From an uncultured Oscillospiraceae bacterium (lineage in GTDB: Bacteria > Bacillota > Clostridia > Oscillospirales > Oscillospiraceae), in NCBI GenBank assembly GCA_947625815.1, contig CANQPU010000003.1:62001-126000 (forward strand): a stretch of 64,000 nt of DNA. Reading direction: 5' to 3'. Position numbers and translations under genes: made by a program. Below are positions 30,406 to 38,530 of this stretch, piece after piece (positions within the stretch are counted from its first letter, which is position 1; the number at the start of each line of letters is the position of its first letter). The notes below the pieces were generated by a model. That model was not told the origin of the DNA. It saw nothing but the letters and a program-made list of their open reading frames with translations, and ran no database searches.

Positions 30406-30436
30406 TAAAATAGGTACATATGCGGAGGTGAAGCGG

Positions 30437-31474
30437 ATGAACTGCGCGGTGCTGATCCCGGCTTACGAGGCGGACGGGCATCTGGTGGACACGGTCAGAT
30501 CCCTTACGGCGCTGGGCGCCGGAAGGATCGTGGTGGTGGACGACGGGAGCTCCCCGGCCTGCGGTCCCTTTTTCGACGAGGCCCGGGCCCTCGGCGCCCA
30601 TGTGTGCCACCACGACGTAAACCGCGGCAAGGGCGCGGCCCTCAAGACGGGCATCCGGTATATCCTTGACACCTTCCCCGACTGCGGCTGCGTCGTCACC
30701 GCGGACGCGGATGGCCAGCACGCCGCCGGGGACGTCCTGCGCGTGGCCTCCCTCGCTCTGGAGAACCCCGGAAGTCTCGTTTTGGGCGTCCGGCGGTTTG
30801 ACGGGGCGGACGTGCCCTGGCGCTCCCGGGCGGGGAACCGGATCACCTCCGCCGTCTTCCGGCTCATCACGGGCCGGTCCTGTCCCGACACTCAGACCGG
30901 TCTGCGCGGCCTGTCCCGGGATCTGCTCCTGCCGGCGCTGAAGTCCGAGGGCGACCGGTACGAATACGAAATGAACCTGCTCATGGACTTTGCCGACCGG
31001 AAGGTCCCCTTCCTCTACGAGCCCATCGAGACCATCTATCTGGACGACAACCGGGCCTCCCATTTCCGGGTGGTGCGGGACTCCTGGCTCGTCTACCGCC
31101 GGCCGTTGACCTTCGCTCTGGCCGCCGGGGCGTCCACCCTGGTGGATCTGGGGGCCTTCTGGCTCCTGGGAAAGCTCCTGGGGGACGGGCGGGCCCGGGT
31201 CTTCGCCGCCTCCGTCATGGCGCGGCTCCTCTCGGGCGGGGTCAACTTCTTCCTCAACAAAAAAGTCACCTTCAGAAGCCGCGGGGACACGAAAAAGGAG
31301 TCCCTGCGCTATCTGATCCTCTTCCTGGCCGTGATGCTCGTCTCCGGCGGGACGGTGGCGCTTCTCAGCCGCCTGCCCGTGCCGACGGTGCTCATCAAGA
31401 TCGTCGTGGACGTGCTCCTCTTCGCGGCCAACTACATCATCGAGCGCAAGTGGGTCTTCCGCCGGGAGGACTGA
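30437..31474 (+). CDS. GT2 glycosyltransferase fused to GtrA membrane domain
   Basis: A 345-residue protein. Residues 1-215 are a DPM1/GtrB-like GT2 domain: AVLIPAYEAD at the start, VVVDDGSS, the GKGAALKTGI acceptor loop, the metal-binding VVTADADGQH and TQTGLRGLS. Residues about 220-345 are a GtrA-like four-helix membrane domain ending YIIERKWVFRRED. In separate form GtrB makes polyprenyl-phosphate sugar and GtrA flips it; the fusion would do both. ATG 30437 has GGAGG 8 nt upstream; a GTG at 30428 overlaps it. It is 21 nt before a GT-C-like gene that could use the lipid-linked sugar. Confidence 0.88.
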   Translation: MNCAVLIPAYEADGHLVDTVRSLTALGAGRIVVVDDGSSPACGPFFDEARALGAHVCHHDVNRGKGAALKTGIRYILDTFPDCGCVVTADADGQHAAGDVLRVASLALENPGSLVLGVRRFDGADVPWRSRAGNRITSAVFRLITGRSCPDTQTGLRGLSRDLLLPALKSEGDRYEYEMNLLMDFADRKVPFLYEPIETIYLDDNRASHFRVVRDSWLVYRRPLTFALAAGASTLVDLGAFWLLGKLLGDGRARVFAASVMARLLSGGVNFFLNKKVTFRSRGDTKKESLRYLILFLAVMLVSGGTVALLSRLPVPTVLIKIVVDVLLFAANYIIERKWVFRRED

Positions 31475-31495
31475 GCGCATCCGGGAGGCGATGGA

Positions 31496-33355
31496 ATGGC
31501 GCTTGTTCTGAATCTCCTGGGGCTTGGCGCCGTTTCCGCGGCGCTGTCGGTGAGATTCCGGGAGAGTCTTGTCAAGACCGTGCCCGTGACGCTGTGCGCC
31601 ACGGGGCTGGTCCTCTATATTTTGGCGTTCTTCGGCGCTCTGGCCGCGATCACCTGGCTCATGGCGGCGGCCGCGCTGGGCGTCCTCCTGGCCCTGATGC
31701 TCGCGGTCCGGCGCGGCGGGCGCGGCGCGCTCAAAGCGGCGGCGGAGCCCTTTCTGGAGCCCCAGGTCTGGGTGAACGCCGCGGCGGTGCTGGCCGTCGT
31801 CCTCCTGGTGAATTACCGTCTCATCACCGAGTGGGACGCCTGCAACTTCTGGGGCCCGGACATCAAGAGCCTCTTTTACCGCCAGGGCTACGCGGGGCAT
31901 CTGAGCAACGTGGCCCCGGGCTTCGGGGACTACCCGCCCATGACGCAGCTGCTCATCTGGTGGTTCCTCAACCTCTTCGGCCGGTTTGACGAGGGGCTCG
32001 TCTTCGGCGGCTACTTCTTCTACACCGCCGCCCTGCTCTTCTCCGTCACCGGATCCCTTCCAAAAAGCGGCGGCCTCCTCCGCCGGCTCGGCCGGGGGGC
32101 CCTCTGCGTCCTGCTGCTTTTCGCGCTTCCCGGCGTGGCCGACAGCTCCTGGTATCGTTCGCTCTACGCCGACCCCGTCATGGGGATGCTCTTCGGCTGT
32201 CTCATCATCGAGATCACCGGCGAGGGCGCCTGGACCGGATGGCGGACGGCCAAGTGCGCCGTGTATCTGGCCTGCCTGGCCCTCACCAAATCCGCGGGGC
32301 TCCTGTGGGCCGCCTACGCCCTTGCGCTGTATCTCCTCTGGCGCGGCGCCCGCGGGCACCGGTGGGCCCTCCCCCTGCTGGCGGGGTCGCCTCTCCTGGC
32401 CGCCGGGAGCTGGGGCGTCTTCTGCCGGGTCATGGACCGCTCCACATACCTGACGCGGAGCCTGGCCCCCTCGGTCCTTGACCGGGCCCGGGAGATCCTG
32501 GGCGGGGGCTTTTTTGAAAACCGACAGGCCCTGGGCTACATCCGGGCGTTTTTCCGCGCCTTCTTCACCCAGCCCGTCCACCGGGAGCTGACGGCCGCCG
32601 TGGATCTCACCCCCGCCGCCGTGCTCCTCCTCATCCTGGCCCTGATCGTCCTCATCCGCAGGGCCGGCCGGCTGGACGGGAGCCGGTCCAAAAGGCTCCT
32701 GCTCTTCACCCTGGGTATGTACGCCGTCACACTCCTGATCCTGCTGGGCTGTCACCTCACCATCTTCTATGACGAGACTCAGTATCTGGAGCCCTCCAAT
32801 ATGCTCACCCAGATGACCCGCTACGGCGGGCCCATGAGCCTGGGGATGCTCATGTGGGCCTTCGGCGTCTGCGCCGGCCGGCCGGACACGGAAAAAGCCC
32901 CCGGAACGGGGGCGTATCTGCCCGGCGTCATGGCCGCGGTGGTGGTCCTCTGCGCCGGCTATACCGTCATGGGCGACTGCCTCATTGAGGGATACGACGA
33001 CCTGAACCCAAAGCGCTATGAGACCCGCGAGAGGTTCGCGGCCGAGTACGCGTCACTCCTGCGGGAGCTGGACCGGGTCCCGCTGGAGGGCGAGGGCCGC
33101 CGGGTCCTGGTGCTGGTCAACAAGGCCGAGACGAACCCCATCGTCACGCTCCTGGCCTCTCCCGTGTCCATCGAGACGATGAGCTACGGGGAAAACGTCA
33201 GCGCCTCATCGATCCGGGACGCGGCGGCGCGGTGCGGCGCCGGGTGGGTCTTCGTCCAGGACGGCGAGGGCGCCGCGCTGGAGGCCCTGGAGGCCGCCCT
33301 GCCCGGATGCCGGGTGGGGGAGCTGTACCCCCTCGATCAGGACCGGTCTCTCTGA
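31496..33355 (+). CDS. Large polytopic membrane protein, GT-C-like glycosyltransferase
   Basis: A 619-residue protein with about 11-13 hydrophobic helices and no clear database family that I can name. After the third helix, an extracytoplasmic loop reads NYRLITEWDACNFWGPDIKSLFYRQGY, then GFGDYPPMTQLLIWWF. Acidic residues after the early helices and such a YPP-containing loop are typical of GT-C enzymes using polyprenyl-phosphate sugars. A soluble C-terminal part of about 130 residues follows. It lies 21 nt after the GT2-GtrA gene and probably uses its product. Its last 150 nt overlap the antiparallel phosphopantetheinyl transferase gene. Confidence 0.75.
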   Translation: MALVLNLLGLGAVSAALSVRFRESLVKTVPVTLCATGLVLYILAFFGALAAITWLMAAAALGVLLALMLAVRRGGRGALKAAAEPFLEPQVWVNAAAVLAVVLLVNYRLITEWDACNFWGPDIKSLFYRQGYAGHLSNVAPGFGDYPPMTQLLIWWFLNLFGRFDEGLVFGGYFFYTAALLFSVTGSLPKSGGLLRRLGRGALCVLLLFALPGVADSSWYRSLYADPVMGMLFGCLIIEITGEGAWTGWRTAKCAVYLACLALTKSAGLLWAAYALALYLLWRGARGHRWALPLLAGSPLLAAGSWGVFCRVMDRSTYLTRSLAPSVLDRAREILGGGFFENRQALGYIRAFFRAFFTQPVHRELTAAVDLTPAAVLLLILALIVLIRRAGRLDGSRSKRLLLFTLGMYAVTLLILLGCHLTIFYDETQYLEPSNMLTQMTRYGGPMSLGMLMWAFGVCAGRPDTEKAPGTGAYLPGVMAAVVVLCAGYTVMGDCLIEGYDDLNPKRYETRERFAAEYASLLRELDRVPLEGEGRRVLVLVNKAETNPIVTLLASPVSIETMSYGENVSASSIRDAAARCGAGWVFVQDGEGAALEALEAALPGCRVGELYPLDQDRSL

Positions 33356-33874
33356 ACTTTCGGAGCTGACGGCGACGGCGTAGCCGGGCGCGGGCAGCAG
33401 GAGCGCCCGGACCGTAAAGCCGCCCACGCGGCTTTTGAGCTTGAGGTCGCCCGTCACGGCGCTCTCCAGCTCCCGGATGGCCCCCAGGCCCTCCCCGGAC
33501 GCCTTCACAAGGCTCTCCTTCACCGTCCAGATCCGGTAGAACCGGCCCTCCCGCCCGCTCTCCGCGGACAGGACATATGCCCGCTCCTCCGGCGTGAGGG
33601 CGGCCATCAGCCCCTCCGGGATCCCGGCCACCCGCTCCGCGTCCACGCCCAGGCGTCCCCCGTCCAGCGCGCAGACCGCCAGGCCCTGCGTGTGGGAGAC
33701 GCTGAATTCCGGTCCGCCCGGGATGAAGGGCTTGCCGTTGGCTCCGCGCCTTACCGACCGCTCCCGGCCGGAGAGGCCCAGCAGCTCCAGGCCCCGGGCC
33801 AGCAGCTGCCGCCCCGCGGCGTGTGCGGCGGCGCCGTCCGCCCCTCGTTCCACCGTTCGCCAGAGTATGAGCAT
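33206..33874 (-). CDS. Sfp-type 4'-phosphopantetheinyl transferase
   Basis: Adds the 4'-phosphopantetheine arm of CoA to carrier proteins. The 222-residue product has GKPFIPGGPEFSVSHTQGLAVCAL, the metal-binding LGVDAERV, and WTVKESLVKASGEGL, the three family motifs in order. The C-terminal 45 residues after YAVAVSSES are not typical; they run 150 nt into the 3' end of the opposing GT-C-like gene. It diverges from an MBOAT gene 86 nt away whose operon encodes a lone carrier protein at 37.2 kb. I infer that this is its activating enzyme. Confidence 0.9.
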   Translation of the reverse strand: MLILWRTVERGADGAAAHAAGRQLLARGLELLGLSGRERSVRRGANGKPFIPGGPEFSVSHTQGLAVCALDGGRLGVDAERVAGIPEGLMAALTPEERAYVLSAESGREGRFYRIWTVKESLVKASGEGLGAIRELESAVTGDLKLKSRVGGFTVRALLLPAPGYAVAVSSESSERPVLIEGVQLPHPASGQGGLQGLQRGALAVLDEDPPGAAPRRRVPDR

Positions 33875-33960
33875 ACCGTCCCGCCTTTCCCCGTTTTTTC
33901 AAGTATATCACACATTGACGGGATTTTCACCGTCCCCGGGAAAAATCCCACGGAGAGAAC

Positions 33961-35376
33961 ATGATTTTTTCGTCCTATCCCTTTCTGTTCGGTTTTCTGC
34001 CTGTGACGCTCGCGGGCTTCCACCTCCTCCGCCGGCTCAAAAATGTCCGGGGCTGTAAGGTGTGGCTCACGGCGGCGTCGCTGGTTTTTTACGCCCTCGG
34101 CCAGCCGGACTTCCTCTTCTGGTTCGCCTCCTCCATCCTCATCAATCACCTGCTCCTGACCCTCATGGACCGTCTGGGGAAAAAGAAACTCTTTCTCGCC
34201 CTGGCCGTCCTCTGGAACCTGGGGCTCCTCTTCTGGTTCAAGTACCTGGACTTTACCATCACCAACATCAACTGGCTCTTCCACACCCACATCCCCCTTC
34301 TGAAGCTCTTCCTCCCCATCGGCATCTCCTTCTTCACCTTTCAGATCCTGGCCTTCAGCGTCAGCTTCTACAAGGGCGAGCGGGCCCTGCCCACGCTTTT
34401 GGATTACGCGGTGTTCGTCACCTTCTTTCCCCAGCTCATCGTGGGGCCGGTGGTCCGCCACGAGGAGGTCATGCCCGCCATCGAGGGGGAGGCGCTGCTG
34501 GAGCTTGACACGGGCCTCCTCCCCCGGGGGGTCATGCTCTTCTCCATGGGCTGTGCCAAAAAGGTCCTGCTGGCGGACACCCTCATCACCTTCGCCTCCG
34601 CCTACTACACCGGCGGCGGCGCGGCCGACGCCGGCCTCGTCCACTCCTGGGCGGCGGTCCTGGCCTATACCTTCGCCTACTACTTCGATTTTTCCGGATA
34701 CATCGACATGGCCCGGGGCCTGGGGTGCTTTTTCGGCATCGAGCTGCCCATAAACTTCGACTCCCCCTACAAGGCCAGGGACTTCGGGGACTTCTGGCGC
34801 CGCTGGAACATCACCGTCTCCCGGTTCTTCAACGACACGGTGTTCTCGAACCTCTTCGGCTTCGGGGACGGCGTGGGGCGGCTCGTCCTGGCCACCATGG
34901 CCACCTTCCTCGTCTCCGGCCTGTGGCACGGCGCGGCGTGGCACTACATCGCCTGGGGCCTTGTGAACGGCGTCCTCGTGACGCTGGCCAACTACCGGGC
35001 CCTCCGGGACAGCCGGCCCCTGCCGGCGTGGCTGGCGGTGTTCCTCACCTTCTTCACCGGGGCGCTGGTGCGGGTGCTCTTTGACTGCACCGGCCTTTCC
35101 CAGGCCGCCATGATCTATCGGAAGCTCTTTGACGTCCGGGAGCTCCTGCATTTTAGGACCTTTGCCGCCTCCGCCCTGGCCTTTGTCAAGGACAACCTCC
35201 AGGTGACGGTCACCATGGCCCTGGGCGCGGTCATCTGCTTCTGCTTCCCCAATTCCAACCGCCTGTCCGAGCGGGAGCGCTGCGGCTGGCGGGAGGCCGT
35301 CTTCAGCGCGGCGCTGCTGGCGGTGTCGCTCCTGTGCATGAGAAGGGTATCCACCTTCCTCTACTTTAACTTCTGA
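33961..35376 (+). CDS. MBOAT family O-acyltransferase (DltB/AlgI-like)
   Basis: A 471-residue membrane acyltransferase with about 11 helices. The family landmarks are the N-terminal MIFSSYPFLFGFLPV, the central LPIGISFFTFQILAFSVSFYKGE, FPQLIVGPVVRHEE, YYFDFSGYIDMARGLG and the catalytic-histidine segment LVSGLWHGAAWHYIAWG (His323, with a second His at 328). DltB uses an acyl carrier protein as donor and moves the acyl group across the membrane. Here a carrier protein and a DltD-like protein lie in the same operon, supporting the same chemistry. It ends 10 nt before the next start. Confidence 0.93.
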   Translation: MIFSSYPFLFGFLPVTLAGFHLLRRLKNVRGCKVWLTAASLVFYALGQPDFLFWFASSILINHLLLTLMDRLGKKKLFLALAVLWNLGLLFWFKYLDFTITNINWLFHTHIPLLKLFLPIGISFFTFQILAFSVSFYKGERALPTLLDYAVFVTFFPQLIVGPVVRHEEVMPAIEGEALLELDTGLLPRGVMLFSMGCAKKVLLADTLITFASAYYTGGGAADAGLVHSWAAVLAYTFAYYFDFSGYIDMARGLGCFFGIELPINFDSPYKARDFGDFWRRWNITVSRFFNDTVFSNLFGFGDGVGRLVLATMATFLVSGLWHGAAWHYIAWGLVNGVLVTLANYRALRDSRPLPAWLAVFLTFFTGALVRVLFDCTGLSQAAMIYRKLFDVRELLHFRTFAASALAFVKDNLQVTVTMALGAVICFCFPNSNRLSERERCGWREAVFSAALLAVSLLCMRRVSTFLYFNF

Positions 35377-35386
35377 GGTGAGAGCT

Positions 35387-37225
35387 TTGCCGGTAAAAAA
35401 ATGGCTCGCCGTGTTCTTCTCCGCCGTGGTCCTCTTCACGGCGGTCCTGGTGGTCTTCAACGTCCTGACCGACCCCTTCGGCGTCTTCGGGGACCCGGTC
35501 ATGGACTGGTATGAATACGACATGACCATGAACCCCCGGATCGCCAAGATCACGTATCTGGACAAAAATTCCGGGAAGTACGACTCCTACATCATCGGGA
35601 GCTCCAAGTGCTCCTCGCTTTCGCCGGAGAAGCTGGGCGCCTACACCGGCGGGCGGTACTACAACATGACCTGGTACGGCGGGGACCTGGTGGACGAGCG
35701 GGCGCTGGCGCGGTATCTCATCGACACCTGCAACGTCCGGCGGATCGTCCTGGCGGTGGACCCCCAGGACACGGAGCTTTTCGACACCGAGGCCGACCCA
35801 GTCAAGGGCAACATGCATTGGAGGGTGGACGGCTCCTCGCCCCTGAGCTTCTACGCCAAATATCTCTTCTCCAACCCCGGCTACGGCCTGGAAAAGCTGG
35901 CCGCCTCCGGGCGGCGCGGATACCTGACGAACGCCGACTCCGTCTACATCGCCGAGACCGGCGTCTACAACAAGCAGCTCCGGGACGGCTCCCGGATAGG
36001 CGCCATGGACGAGTATCTGGCCTTTGAGAACAACTATTATGAGCAGTCCCCCTGCTCCATGCCCTGTCTGGAGGGGGCCCTGGAGGCCGTGGCGGACATC
36101 GCGGACATGTGCCGGGAGAACGGCGTGGAGCTCACGGTCGTCGGCGTGCCCCTCTATGCCGGGGACCTGGCCCGGTACGATCAGGCAAAAATGGAGGAAT
36201 TCCGCCGGGGCCTGGCCCAGATCGCCCCCTATTACGATTTCTGGGACTTCAACTGCGTGACACGCGACCTGCGGTACTTTTACGACGTGGACCATTTCCG
36301 CAACTGCGTGGGCGACATGGTGCTGGCGTATATCTACGGGGACCCGGAGGTCTGGATGCCCGCGGGCTTCGGCCACCTGACCACGCGGGAGAACGTGGAG
36401 GCGCGCGTCGCCCAGGTCCGGGCCGGCGAGGACGCCCCCTCCGAGAGCCACACGGCCGCCCTGCCCATCCTGATGTACCACTCCTTCGACGAAGGGACCG
36501 GCGCCGTCACCGCCGCCGAGTTTGAGTCCCAGCTCTCCGCCCTCCGGGACGCCGGGTACACGGCGGTGACCTATGACGACCTTTTCGCCTACGTGGCCCA
36601 CGGGACGGAGCTGCCCGCAAGGCCCGTGCTGATCACCTTTGACGACGGGTACAGGAACAATCTGGACGTGGCCGCGCCCCTTTTGGAGGAATACGGCATG
36701 TCCGCCGTGATCTCCGTCATCGGCGTCTCCGTGGGGAAGGACACCTACAAGGACACCGGCGAGGCCATGACCCCCCACTTCTCCCTGGAGCAGGCCCTGC
36801 CCTGGGTCGAACGGGGCGTACTGGATATCAAGAGCCACTCCTACGACATGCACCAGGTCCCCGAACGGGACGGGGAGGACTGCCGCCGGGGCGTTCTGCG
36901 GATGGAGGGCGAGAGCGAGGAGGACTATGTCTCCGCGCTGACGGAGGATCTCCTGCGCTCCCGGGCCCAGCTGGAGGCCGTCCCGGGCCTGGCCGCGGAC
37001 GTGTTCACCTACCCCAACGGGCTTTACGACACCCTCTCCGAGGCGGTGCTGAGGAGCCTGGGCGTCCGGGCCACCGTCACTACGGATTACGGGGTGAACG
37101 TCCTTGTGAAGGGCATCCCCCAGAGCCTTTTTGCCCTCAAGCGGGTGAGCGTGGACCCGGGCATGGACGGGGCGGCGCTGCTGGCGCGTCTGGACGGGCT
37201 GGCCCCGGATGAATCCGATCGATGA
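35387..37225 (+). CDS. DltD/SGNH-like domain fused to NodB polysaccharide deacetylase
   Basis: A 612-residue two-domain protein. A membrane anchor (about residues 4-24) is followed by a DltD/AlgJ-like SGNH region with YIIGSSKCSSL (Ser72 or Ser73) and the paired Asp/His segment FYDVDHFRNCVGD. Residues about 365-600 are a NodB deacetylase: ILMYHSFDEG, the metal-binding LITFDDGYRNN (Asp419-Asp420) and SHSYDMH (His484 and His489). Start uncertain: TTG 35387 has AGGTGA at a good distance, while GTG 35378 overlaps that site. It lies between the MBOAT and carrier genes. I infer extracytoplasmic transfer plus deacetylation of a surface glycan. Confidence 0.85.
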   Translation: MPVKKWLAVFFSAVVLFTAVLVVFNVLTDPFGVFGDPVMDWYEYDMTMNPRIAKITYLDKNSGKYDSYIIGSSKCSSLSPEKLGAYTGGRYYNMTWYGGDLVDERALARYLIDTCNVRRIVLAVDPQDTELFDTEADPVKGNMHWRVDGSSPLSFYAKYLFSNPGYGLEKLAASGRRGYLTNADSVYIAETGVYNKQLRDGSRIGAMDEYLAFENNYYEQSPCSMPCLEGALEAVADIADMCRENGVELTVVGVPLYAGDLARYDQAKMEEFRRGLAQIAPYYDFWDFNCVTRDLRYFYDVDHFRNCVGDMVLAYIYGDPEVWMPAGFGHLTTRENVEARVAQVRAGEDAPSESHTAALPILMYHSFDEGTGAVTAAEFESQLSALRDAGYTAVTYDDLFAYVAHGTELPARPVLITFDDGYRNNLDVAAPLLEEYGMSAVISVIGVSVGKDTYKDTGEAMTPHFSLEQALPWVERGVLDIKSHSYDMHQVPERDGEDCRRGVLRMEGESEEDYVSALTEDLLRSRAQLEAVPGLAADVFTYPNGLYDTLSEAVLRSLGVRATVTTDYGVNVLVKGIPQSLFALKRVSVDPGMDGAALLARLDGLAPDESDR

Positions 37226-37248
37226 TCTTTCTTTTGGGAGGTATGGAA

Positions 37249-37491
37249 ATGGACACACGGGAACGGATCTATCAGTTTTTTGTGGACAAGAAGAAGGCCG
37301 ACGGCCTCACCTATGACACGGAGCTCCTCAAGAGCCGCTTCATCAATTCCCTCTTCGCCCTTCAGATCGTGATGTTCGTGGAGAAGGAATTCGGCGTGAA
37401 GCTGGGCCGGCGGGAGATCTCCACCGAAAACTTCCACTCCATCAACGCCATAGCGGAGCTGGTGGAGTCTCACCTTGGGGGGAACGGCTGA
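37249..37491 (+). CDS. Acyl carrier protein (DltC/FkbJ-like)
   Basis: An 80-residue carrier protein. The four-helix pattern is clear, with RFINSLFALQIVMFVEKEFGVKL. The attachment serine is Ser34 in NSL, where the canonical triplet is DSL. The N terminus is short and hydrophilic (MDTRERIYQFFVDKKK). It fits stand-alone carriers that serve FkbH enzymes or DltA. ATG 37249 follows GGGAGG by 7 nt. The next gene, FkbH-like, begins 1 nt after its stop, so the pair is translated together. Confidence 0.88.
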   Translation: MDTRERIYQFFVDKKKADGLTYDTELLKSRFINSLFALQIVMFVEKEFGVKLGRREISTENFHSINAIAELVESHLGGNG

Positions 37492-37492
37492 C

Positions 37493-38530
37493 ATGGCGGA
37501 GGATGTGAGGATCAAGCTGGTCATCTGGGACCTGGACAACACCCTCTGGGAGGGGACGCTCTCCGAGGGCGGCGGCGCCCGGCTGCGTCCCGGCGCGCGG
37601 GAGGCCGTGCTGGAGCTGGACAGGCGGGGCATCGTCCAGTCTGTGGCCAGCAAGAACGACCCCGACGCCGCGGCGGCGCGGATACGGGACTTCGGCCTGG
37701 AGGACTACTTCCTCTGCCCCCGGATCTCCTGGGGCCCCAAGTCCGCCGGCGTGGGGGCGATCCTCTCCGCCCTCAACATAAAGCCGGAGGCCGCGGCCTT
37801 CGTGGACGACTCGGAATTTGAGCGGGACGAGGTCCTCCACGCCCTGCCCCGGGTCCACGCCTACGACGGCGCGTCCCTGGCGGAGCTGACGGCGCTGCCG
37901 GAATTTCAGGTGCCCTTCATCACCCGGGACGCCGCCAACCGCCGTGGGATGTACAGGGCCGATCTGGCCCGTCAGAGCGCGGAGAGCGCCTTTGAGGGCA
38001 GCGCCGACGAATTTCTGGCCACCCTCGGCATGGAGCTGGACATCTCCCCGGTGACAAGGGAGGACATCCGGCGCGTGGAGGAGCTGACGGTCCGCACCCA
38101 TCAGCTGAACTCCACCGGCTACACCTACGACTACGACGAGCTGACCGCCATGATCGACGACCCTGGGTATCTCTTTCTCATCTGCGGGCTTCGGGACAAA
38201 TACGGCGACAGCGGCAAGGTGGGCCTGCTGCTCATGGAGCGGGGCGACGCCCTGCGAATCAAGCTGCTCATCGTCTCCTGCCGGGTGATGTCCCGGGGCA
38301 TTGGCTCGGCTCTGCTGGCCCACGCCACCCGGATCGCCGCCCGGGAGGGCAAGCCCCTTCTGGCCGAGTTTTTCGAGACGGAGCACAACCGCATCATGTA
38401 TATCACCTACAAGCTGGCGGGCTTTGAGGAGGTGGAGGAAAACGGAAGCGCCCTTTTGCTCCGCTACGCCTCCGACACGCCTCTGCCGATGCCGGATTAC
38501 CTGAAGGTCAACGAATCCCAAACAAATTGA
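37493..38530 (+). CDS. FkbH-like HAD-IIIC enzyme with GNAT-like domain
   Basis: A 345-residue FkbH-family enzyme. In studied polyketide pathways FkbH homologues take 1,3-bisphosphoglycerate and load a glyceryl group onto a carrier protein. The N-terminal HAD domain has VIWDLDNTLWEGTL (Asp13 and Asp15), SKNDPDAA and AAFVDDSEFERDEV, all diagnostic. The C-terminal half contains a GNAT-like segment, VSCRVMSRGIGSALLAHATRIA. It directly follows the carrier gene and closes the operon before a hairpin. In a Dlt-like cluster it takes the place of DltA, which suggests a glyceryl or related acyl donor; that role is inference. Confidence 0.88.
   Translation: MAEDVRIKLVIWDLDNTLWEGTLSEGGGARLRPGAREAVLELDRRGIVQSVASKNDPDAAAARIRDFGLEDYFLCPRISWGPKSAGVGAILSALNIKPEAAAFVDDSEFERDEVLHALPRVHAYDGASLAELTALPEFQVPFITRDAANRRGMYRADLARQSAESAFEGSADEFLATLGMELDISPVTREDIRRVEELTVRTHQLNSTGYTYDYDELTAMIDDPGYLFLICGLRDKYGDSGKVGLLLMERGDALRIKLLIVSCRVMSRGIGSALLAHATRIAAREGKPLLAEFFETEHNRIMYITYKLAGFEEVEENGSALLLRYASDTPLPMPDYLKVNESQTN

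Follow-up and report, generated by a model that had tools for sequence, protein, structure and literature searches.

Introduction

Described pairs of a membrane-bound O-acyltransferase (MBOAT) and an SGNH-family protein use either carrier-borne D-alanine or acyl groups supplied by CoA. In the Dlt system the acyl-shuttle motif FXYXXF resides on a microprotein, DltX, and in another member of this class, PatA, the MBOAT auto-acetylates a Tyr within its own C-terminal hexapeptide, according to passages of one account (PMC12148441). The MBOAT/SGNH pathways other than Dlt are presented in those passages as having no carrier, evidently because acyl-CoA is used. A different precedent comes from the malonyl-type cassettes of polyketide clusters, for which part of PMC7489565 describes an FkbH-like protein, Mad14, and a stand-alone carrier that were proposed, not demonstrated, to make a glyceryl-acyl carrier protein ahead of two oxidations.

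Here we describe a locus that brings these components together, in a 64,000-nucleotide stretch of DNA from an uncultured gut bacterium of the Oscillospiraceae (contig CANQPU010000003.1, positions 62,001 to 126,000), referred to throughout as the window. A four-gene operon encoding an MBOAT, an SGNH-NodB fusion, a carrier and an FkbH enzyme adjoins a divergent phosphopantetheinyl transferase (PPTase) gene. The parts, their conserved residues, the gene order, the conservation of the unit, the exchange of the loader and the relationships of FkbH and carrier were established by sequence or comparison. We consider it probable from these that the locus performs carrier-fed MBOAT-SGNH acylation with glyceryl from 1,3-bisphosphoglycerate as the donor, rather than D-alanyl or acetyl. 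No description of such a system was found in the literature.

Results

The predicted acylation operon

The operon begins with an MBOAT acyltransferase carrying His323 and a C-terminal shuttle motif (33961..35376, forward strand; PF03062, 103.6 bits, cut-off 27), followed on the same strand by a putative DltD/PatB-like SGNH acyltransferase domain fused to a PgaB-like NodB de-N-acetylase domain (35387..37225; PF01522, 55.8 bits, cut-off 23.1, together with a predicted model and fold matches), a stand-alone carrier protein with Ser34 in the motif NSL (37249..37491), and FkbH, comprising a HAD domain and a GNAT fold, which is the predicted carrier loader (37493..38530; TIGR01686, 227.8 bits, cut-off 146.65, and a model). 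The Sfp-type PPTase diverges from the operon (33206..33874, reverse strand; PF01648, 48 bits, cut-off 25), and between it and the MBOAT there is no gene, the two being separated by an 86 nt spacer alone. An initial annotation, made from the sequence without database searches, had placed five genes here; all are confirmed, with the PPTase, MBOAT, NodB and FkbH identifications above family cut-offs, but Pfam at its cut-offs recovers neither the carrier (15.2 bits on PF00550, against 20.8) nor the SGNH half, which has no match. The intergenic gaps of 10, 23 and 1 nt that it gave are valid with starts at TTG 35387 (SGNH-NodB), ATG 37249 (carrier) and ATG 37493 (FkbH), which agree with purine-rich sites upstream; an alternative start for SGNH-NodB is GTG 35378, from which the residues of that protein are numbered.

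Conservation of the gene set

We call loci with MBOAT, SGNH-NodB, carrier and FkbH type A, and those with a DltA-like ligase, GNAT, carrier, MBOAT and SGNH-NodB type B. When 245 genomes of the order were searched with the FkbH protein, 47 matched, mostly through open frames of about 600 residues that represent another FkbH lineage (the long FkbHs). From GTDB contigs, 80 loci out of 337 confirmed relatives were retained: 11 have SGNH-NodB, carrier and FkbH (with an MBOAT in view in 10), 67 have at least one dehydrogenase of the malonyl-cassette type without an MBOAT or SGNH-NodB match, and two have FkbH alone. When all searches are pooled, and after removal of duplicate records and of one member of a pair of loci 99.3% identical, at least 12 distinct loci hold SGNH-NodB, carrier and FkbH, and an MBOAT is in view in 11; one locus, L049, is cut by a contig end. 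The gene set is conserved beyond chance, and its anticipated co-occurrence as a unit in Clostridia is borne out. Closer to the window, there were zero FkbH matches in 17 other genomes of the family, and the other congener sampled (G036) had neither the SGNH-NodB fusion nor a short FkbH.

The donor side: FkbH and carrier

The FkbH residues Asp13, Asp15, Thr17, Lys83, Asp105, Asp106 and Cys263 are kept in 17 of 17 proteins, 10 from type A loci and seven from cassette loci. In a tree of 70 FkbH domains the type A proteins group with 31 malonyl-cassette FkbHs (29 drawn from the 67 cassette loci, plus L038 and L039) with support of 97/90; 22 of 25 long-FkbH domains are set apart by a branch of great length, with the other three (L040 twice, L041) intermediate.

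The carrier follows the same pattern. The carriers of relatives have the same serine motif, and that of the window scores 78.7 bits on a cassette-carrier profile versus 22.7 bits on a DltC profile built from five DltCs of the class; on the DltC model NF003464 it reaches 15.2 bits (cut-off 68). Type A carriers as a set score 68.8–96.2 bits on the cassette-carrier profile, 29.5–40.0 on the type B profile, 19.9–33.6 on DltC and 11.2–23.4 on the long-FkbH carrier profile, and the controls run on the cassette-carrier profile gave medians of 40.7 bits for type B carriers, 33.6 for DltC and 17.9 for long-FkbH carriers. No acyl-CoA dehydrogenase gene was seen in type A loci. To judge by sequence, FkbH and carrier are nearest to the proposed glyceryl-carrier pair of the malonyl-type cassettes, without its oxidation genes. 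Because FkbH falls with the cassette FkbHs and the carrier prefers the cassette to the DltC profile, glyceryl is the best guess, and most likely the acyl group.

The MBOAT and its acyl-shuttle tail

The window MBOAT reaches 137.5 bits on the DltB model TIGR04091, far under the cut-off of 375. His323, already recognised as a catalytic-type residue in the initial annotation, is kept in 38 of 38 aligned MBOATs, and Tyr468 in all 33 non-DltB rows. The protein ends in FLYFNF, matching FxYxxF; among the C-terminal ends of 37 MBOAT rows (duplicates included), 31 have FxYxxF and six, all type B, have FIYxx[YH]. No shuttle tail is present in five DltBs of the class, whose operons encode ligases that score 501–549 bits on the DltA model and narrowly miss the cut-off of 559.85; a short open reading frame upstream ends in FIYNQF or FIYNEF in two of three such operons read. 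Types A and B, by comparison, have a carrier together with a tail fused to the MBOAT.

Position 283 aligns through its W-x-x-W-H/N context to DltB His289 (a residue treated in part of PMC11035591). All 11 type A MBOATs have Asn at this position, and all 27 others compared have His. A second MBOAT in the window's genome (L002, 1111–2439, forward strand, contig C17) ends in FIYFDF, and no carrier gene was noticed among its listed surrounding open reading frames of at least 100 residues.

The SGNH-NodB fusion

In its predicted model (mean predicted local distance difference test score, pLDDT, 91.5) the fusion protein has an SGNH fold in its N-terminal half, with a helix ahead of it. Ser76, Asp303 and His306 of the SGNH half are kept in 19 of 20 aligned proteins, and Asp422, Asp423, His487 and His492 of the NodB half in 20 of 20. 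The exception among the SGNH halves is L164 (7118–8929, reverse strand, at a contig edge), in which the Ser, Asp and His are all replaced and the NodB residues intact; no acylation genes are in view there. Fold scores leave the SGNH subfamily unsettled, and the DltD/PatB-like assignment is a prediction. The NodB half has a PgaB-like fold with an Asp-Asp-His-His metal site, which we take to correspond to the residues of PgaB, and is predicted to carry out de-N-acetylation. On the PgaB equivalog TIGR03938 the window protein scores 84.6 bits, below the cut-off of 321.9; therefore the polymer may differ from that of PgaB.

Exchange of the loader between type A and type B loci

The SGNH-NodB alignment was searched against 391 genomes of the class, the window's own fusion being counted. 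Matches occur in 197, and nearly every one listed falls on the NodB half; 14 are full-length fusions, and the neighbourhoods of all 14 were read. Four are type A, eight are type B and two have neither loader (one lies at a contig edge). Hence the notion of an FkbH in place of DltA holds comparatively, a single SGNH-NodB family occurring with a DltA-like ligase in 8/14 loci and with FkbH in 4/14. One type B ligase scores 262.9 bits on the NCBIfam DltA model. In a 398-genome sample of the phylum, the SGNH half matched nine genomes, among them the window's own; of the remaining eight, three match strongly (two type B loci from a single genus, and one locus with no loader in view) and five weakly. 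No type A locus was seen outside the class in this small sample.

Median identities between SGNH-NodB proteins are 46.1% within type A, 37.3% within type B and 36.0% between the types; for the MBOATs the corresponding values are 52.6%, 42.1% and 25.9%. The MBOATs of each type form a clade of their own with 100/100 support, and some long-FkbH MBOATs are nearer to those of type B; a joint clade of type A and type B MBOATs was rejected. The trees are unrooted, and hence silent on the direction of change. On these results, the donor side differs as a set and the polymer-facing protein is a continuous family, so that the whole donor module seems to have been exchanged about a constant SGNH-NodB.

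The type B loci (L157–L160, L162, L163, L165 and L166 in the class, L230 and L231 outside it) contain a dedicated GNAT, a carrier and an MBOAT with a fused tail, besides the DltA-like ligase and SGNH-NodB. In 8/8 class type B ligases the residue before GE of one pocket motif is Ala, Gly or Ser, as against Cys, Val or Ile in five class DltAs; because these pocket residues differ, the type B substrate may not be D-alanine. In the long-FkbH lineage an MBOAT with the shuttle motif is nearby in 13 of the 24 loci read (L042, L171, L173, L176, L177, L179–L183, L185, L187 and L190), and the carriers mostly adjoining these MBOATs have WDSL or WDSM. These loci are possibly another FkbH-fed surface acylation system.

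Boundaries and neighbouring genes

Two further genes precede the PPTase, so that the window order is GT2-GtrA, polytopic protein, PPTase (reverse strand), MBOAT, SGNH-NodB, carrier and FkbH. The first encodes a GT2 glycosyltransferase fused to a GtrA membrane domain (30428..31474, forward strand; PF00535, 58.4 bits; PF04138, 62.6 bits) and the second a polytopic membrane protein (31496..33355, forward strand) with no Pfam family above cut-off and no NCBIfam match, which is possibly a GT-C glycosyltransferase. When the loci of six relatives were compared with the whole window, matches above 80 bits were confined to 30.4–38.5 kb, despite available flanks of 2.9 kb (left) and 8.5 kb (right) in the congener L036 and of 1.9 kb and 9.0 kb in L046; thus a block is shared amid different surroundings. 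The 8.1-kb, seven-gene block 30428..38530 is common to the window and the congener. Of the span first proposed, 33206..38530, the five-gene core stands, but the left edge belongs at 30428. The GT2-GtrA gene is a member of the shared block with a putative role; it and the polytopic gene occur in 6/12 distinct type A loci; in L048 and L050 the pair lies on the opposite flank of the operon, and in L050 the polytopic gene is cut by the contig end. In the window the PPTase frame overlaps the 3′ end of the convergent polytopic gene by 150 nt (33206–33355); in L036 the PPTase (201 residues) and polytopic frames abut without overlap. The PPTase end in the window may be an extension.

Host genome and candidate acceptor

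The window's genome is 95.9% complete in 35 contigs. No DltA was found in it, and there is none in the operon; the single AMP-ligase match most resembles long-chain acyl-CoA ligases without reaching their cut-offs, which agrees with the original remark that a DltA-like AMP ligase is absent. One further PPTase-superfamily gene is presumably AcpS. The 38 SLH matches of the genome, with a CsaB above cut-off, make an SLH-binding wall polymer likely; this polymer is perhaps the acceptor. Within the window, 40247–63553 (reverse strand) is one open frame of 7768 residues with three C-terminal SLH domains and an InlB-type repeat. Five PF00884 matches, of which the best reaches 32.6 bits against an LtaS model cut-off of 970, leave open that a teichoic-type polymer may be the acceptor. 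By analogy, the PgaB/PplD-like half suggests a polymer containing N-acetylglucosamine, and the GT2-GtrA and polytopic proteins resemble multi-component wall-polymer glycosylation, as set out in part of PMC8035078.

Discussion

Proposed pathway and its alternatives

We infer the acyl group, the acceptor and all reactions of the following scheme. The PPTase would arm Ser34 of the carrier. FkbH would take glyceryl from 1,3-bisphosphoglycerate, probably via Cys263, whose role is putative, with the HAD domain removing phosphate, and load the carrier. The MBOAT, with His323 as catalyst, would then move the group from the carrier across the membrane onto Tyr468 of its own tail, from which Ser76 of the SGNH domain would take it and esterify a hydroxyl of a surface glycopolymer. 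The fused NodB domain would strip an N-acetyl group from the same polymer and, in this genus, the GT2-GtrA and polytopic pair may add a sugar to it.

Several observations weigh against this scheme. The DltD fold match of the SGNH domain is no better than that of general SGNH hydrolases; the PPTase adjoins the operon in just 5/12 distinct type A loci; the type A FkbHs are not resolved as a single clade in the 70-domain tree; and L049, alone among type A loci, has a 3-hydroxyacyl-dehydrogenase-like gene about 4 kb from the operon. The MBOATs beside long FkbHs retain His at position 283, so that Asn283 of type A is not a simple mark of glyceryl. Some FkbH-type enzymes can load other acyl groups, so kinship is not decisive for the substrate. 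Hence the same machine might carry another small hydroxyacyl group, such as D-lactyl, and make a surface ester that is not glyceryl, as the separate lineage of long FkbHs beside MBOATs would allow; the affinity of the window's FkbH and carrier for the cassette pair, for which glyceryl was proposed, makes this unlikely.

We regard it as quite improbable that the MBOAT and SGNH-NodB O-acetylate the polymer from acetyl-CoA and that FkbH and carrier serve a separate, adjoining pathway. PatA, an MBOAT with a fused tail, uses acyl-CoA (in the passages of PMC12148441), and two cyanobacterial clusters pair FkbH and MBOAT in separate roles, but the gaps here are 1–23 nt, the set is kept in 12 loci, and the sister type replaces FkbH and carrier with a ligase, GNAT and carrier. 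It is very improbable, too, that glyceryl is altered before transfer, or that glyceric acid is built into the polymer backbone as in the lipoteichoic acid of C. difficile, the repeat of which contains it (part of PMC10642750): the operon showed neither an acyl-CoA dehydrogenase nor a polymerase gene, and side-group acylation is a known role of MBOAT-SGNH pairs. Ordinary D-alanylation with a DltA elsewhere in the genome is hardly credible, for although the MBOAT is reminiscent of DltB and the SGNH part of DltD, and the assembly falls short of 100%, the sole AMP-ligase found lies nearest the long-chain ligases, the DltC profile gives the carrier a low score and the MBOAT is not close to DltB.

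Glycerylation from 1,3-bisphosphoglycerate, if true, would add a third donor route. The resulting surface ester would be hydroxylated and uncharged, its supply would track glycolysis with no need of ATP-driven activation, and polymer acylation would prove to be assembled from exchangeable donor modules. A broader idea, in which we place as much doubt as confidence, is that envelope acylation is modular, with loader, carrier and MBOAT forming an exchangeable cartridge on a constant SGNH-NodB, and with one cartridge running on 1,3-bisphosphoglycerate, not ATP or acyl-CoA, and thus supplying glyceryl for a surface polymer straight from glycolysis; the long-FkbH lineage, with carriers and MBOATs of its own, would make glycolysis-fed acylation of the surface common in these gut Clostridia. 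The Asn/His difference at position 283 would offer a handle on the acyl specificity of MBOATs.

Comparison with known systems

The locus resembles the PgaB, IcaB and PplD proteins in the fold and metal-site residues of its NodB half, which differs from them in being fused to an SGNH domain within an acylation operon. The hydroxymalonyl- and methoxymalonyl-acyl carrier protein cassettes of polyketide clusters hold the nearest relatives of its FkbH and carrier, and FkbH has the features of its family (TIGR01686 above cut-off, the HAD motif residues and the conserved Cys); unlike those cassettes, type A loci show no acyl-CoA dehydrogenase gene and are coupled to a membrane acyltransferase. The locus shares with PatA/PatB-type O-acetylation an MBOAT whose C-terminus bears the shuttle motif, and a separately encoded SGNH partner, but it adds a dedicated carrier and loader. 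With Dlt it shares a carrier-bound donor, an MBOAT, an SGNH partner, an acyl-shuttle hexapeptide and the operon logic; however, where Dlt has DltA, DltC and a separate DltX, the window has FkbH, a cassette-type carrier, a shuttle fused to the MBOAT, and SGNH plus NodB. All four features of Dlt membership, namely DltA, a DltB above cut-off, a DltC-type carrier and a separate DltX, are missing, and those of MBOAT-SGNH acylation, namely His323, the FxYxxF motif and a membrane-anchored SGNH domain with Ser-Asp-His, are present. On its predicted functions, the cluster works like Dlt without being a member of it, and belongs to MBOAT-SGNH acylation as a variant.

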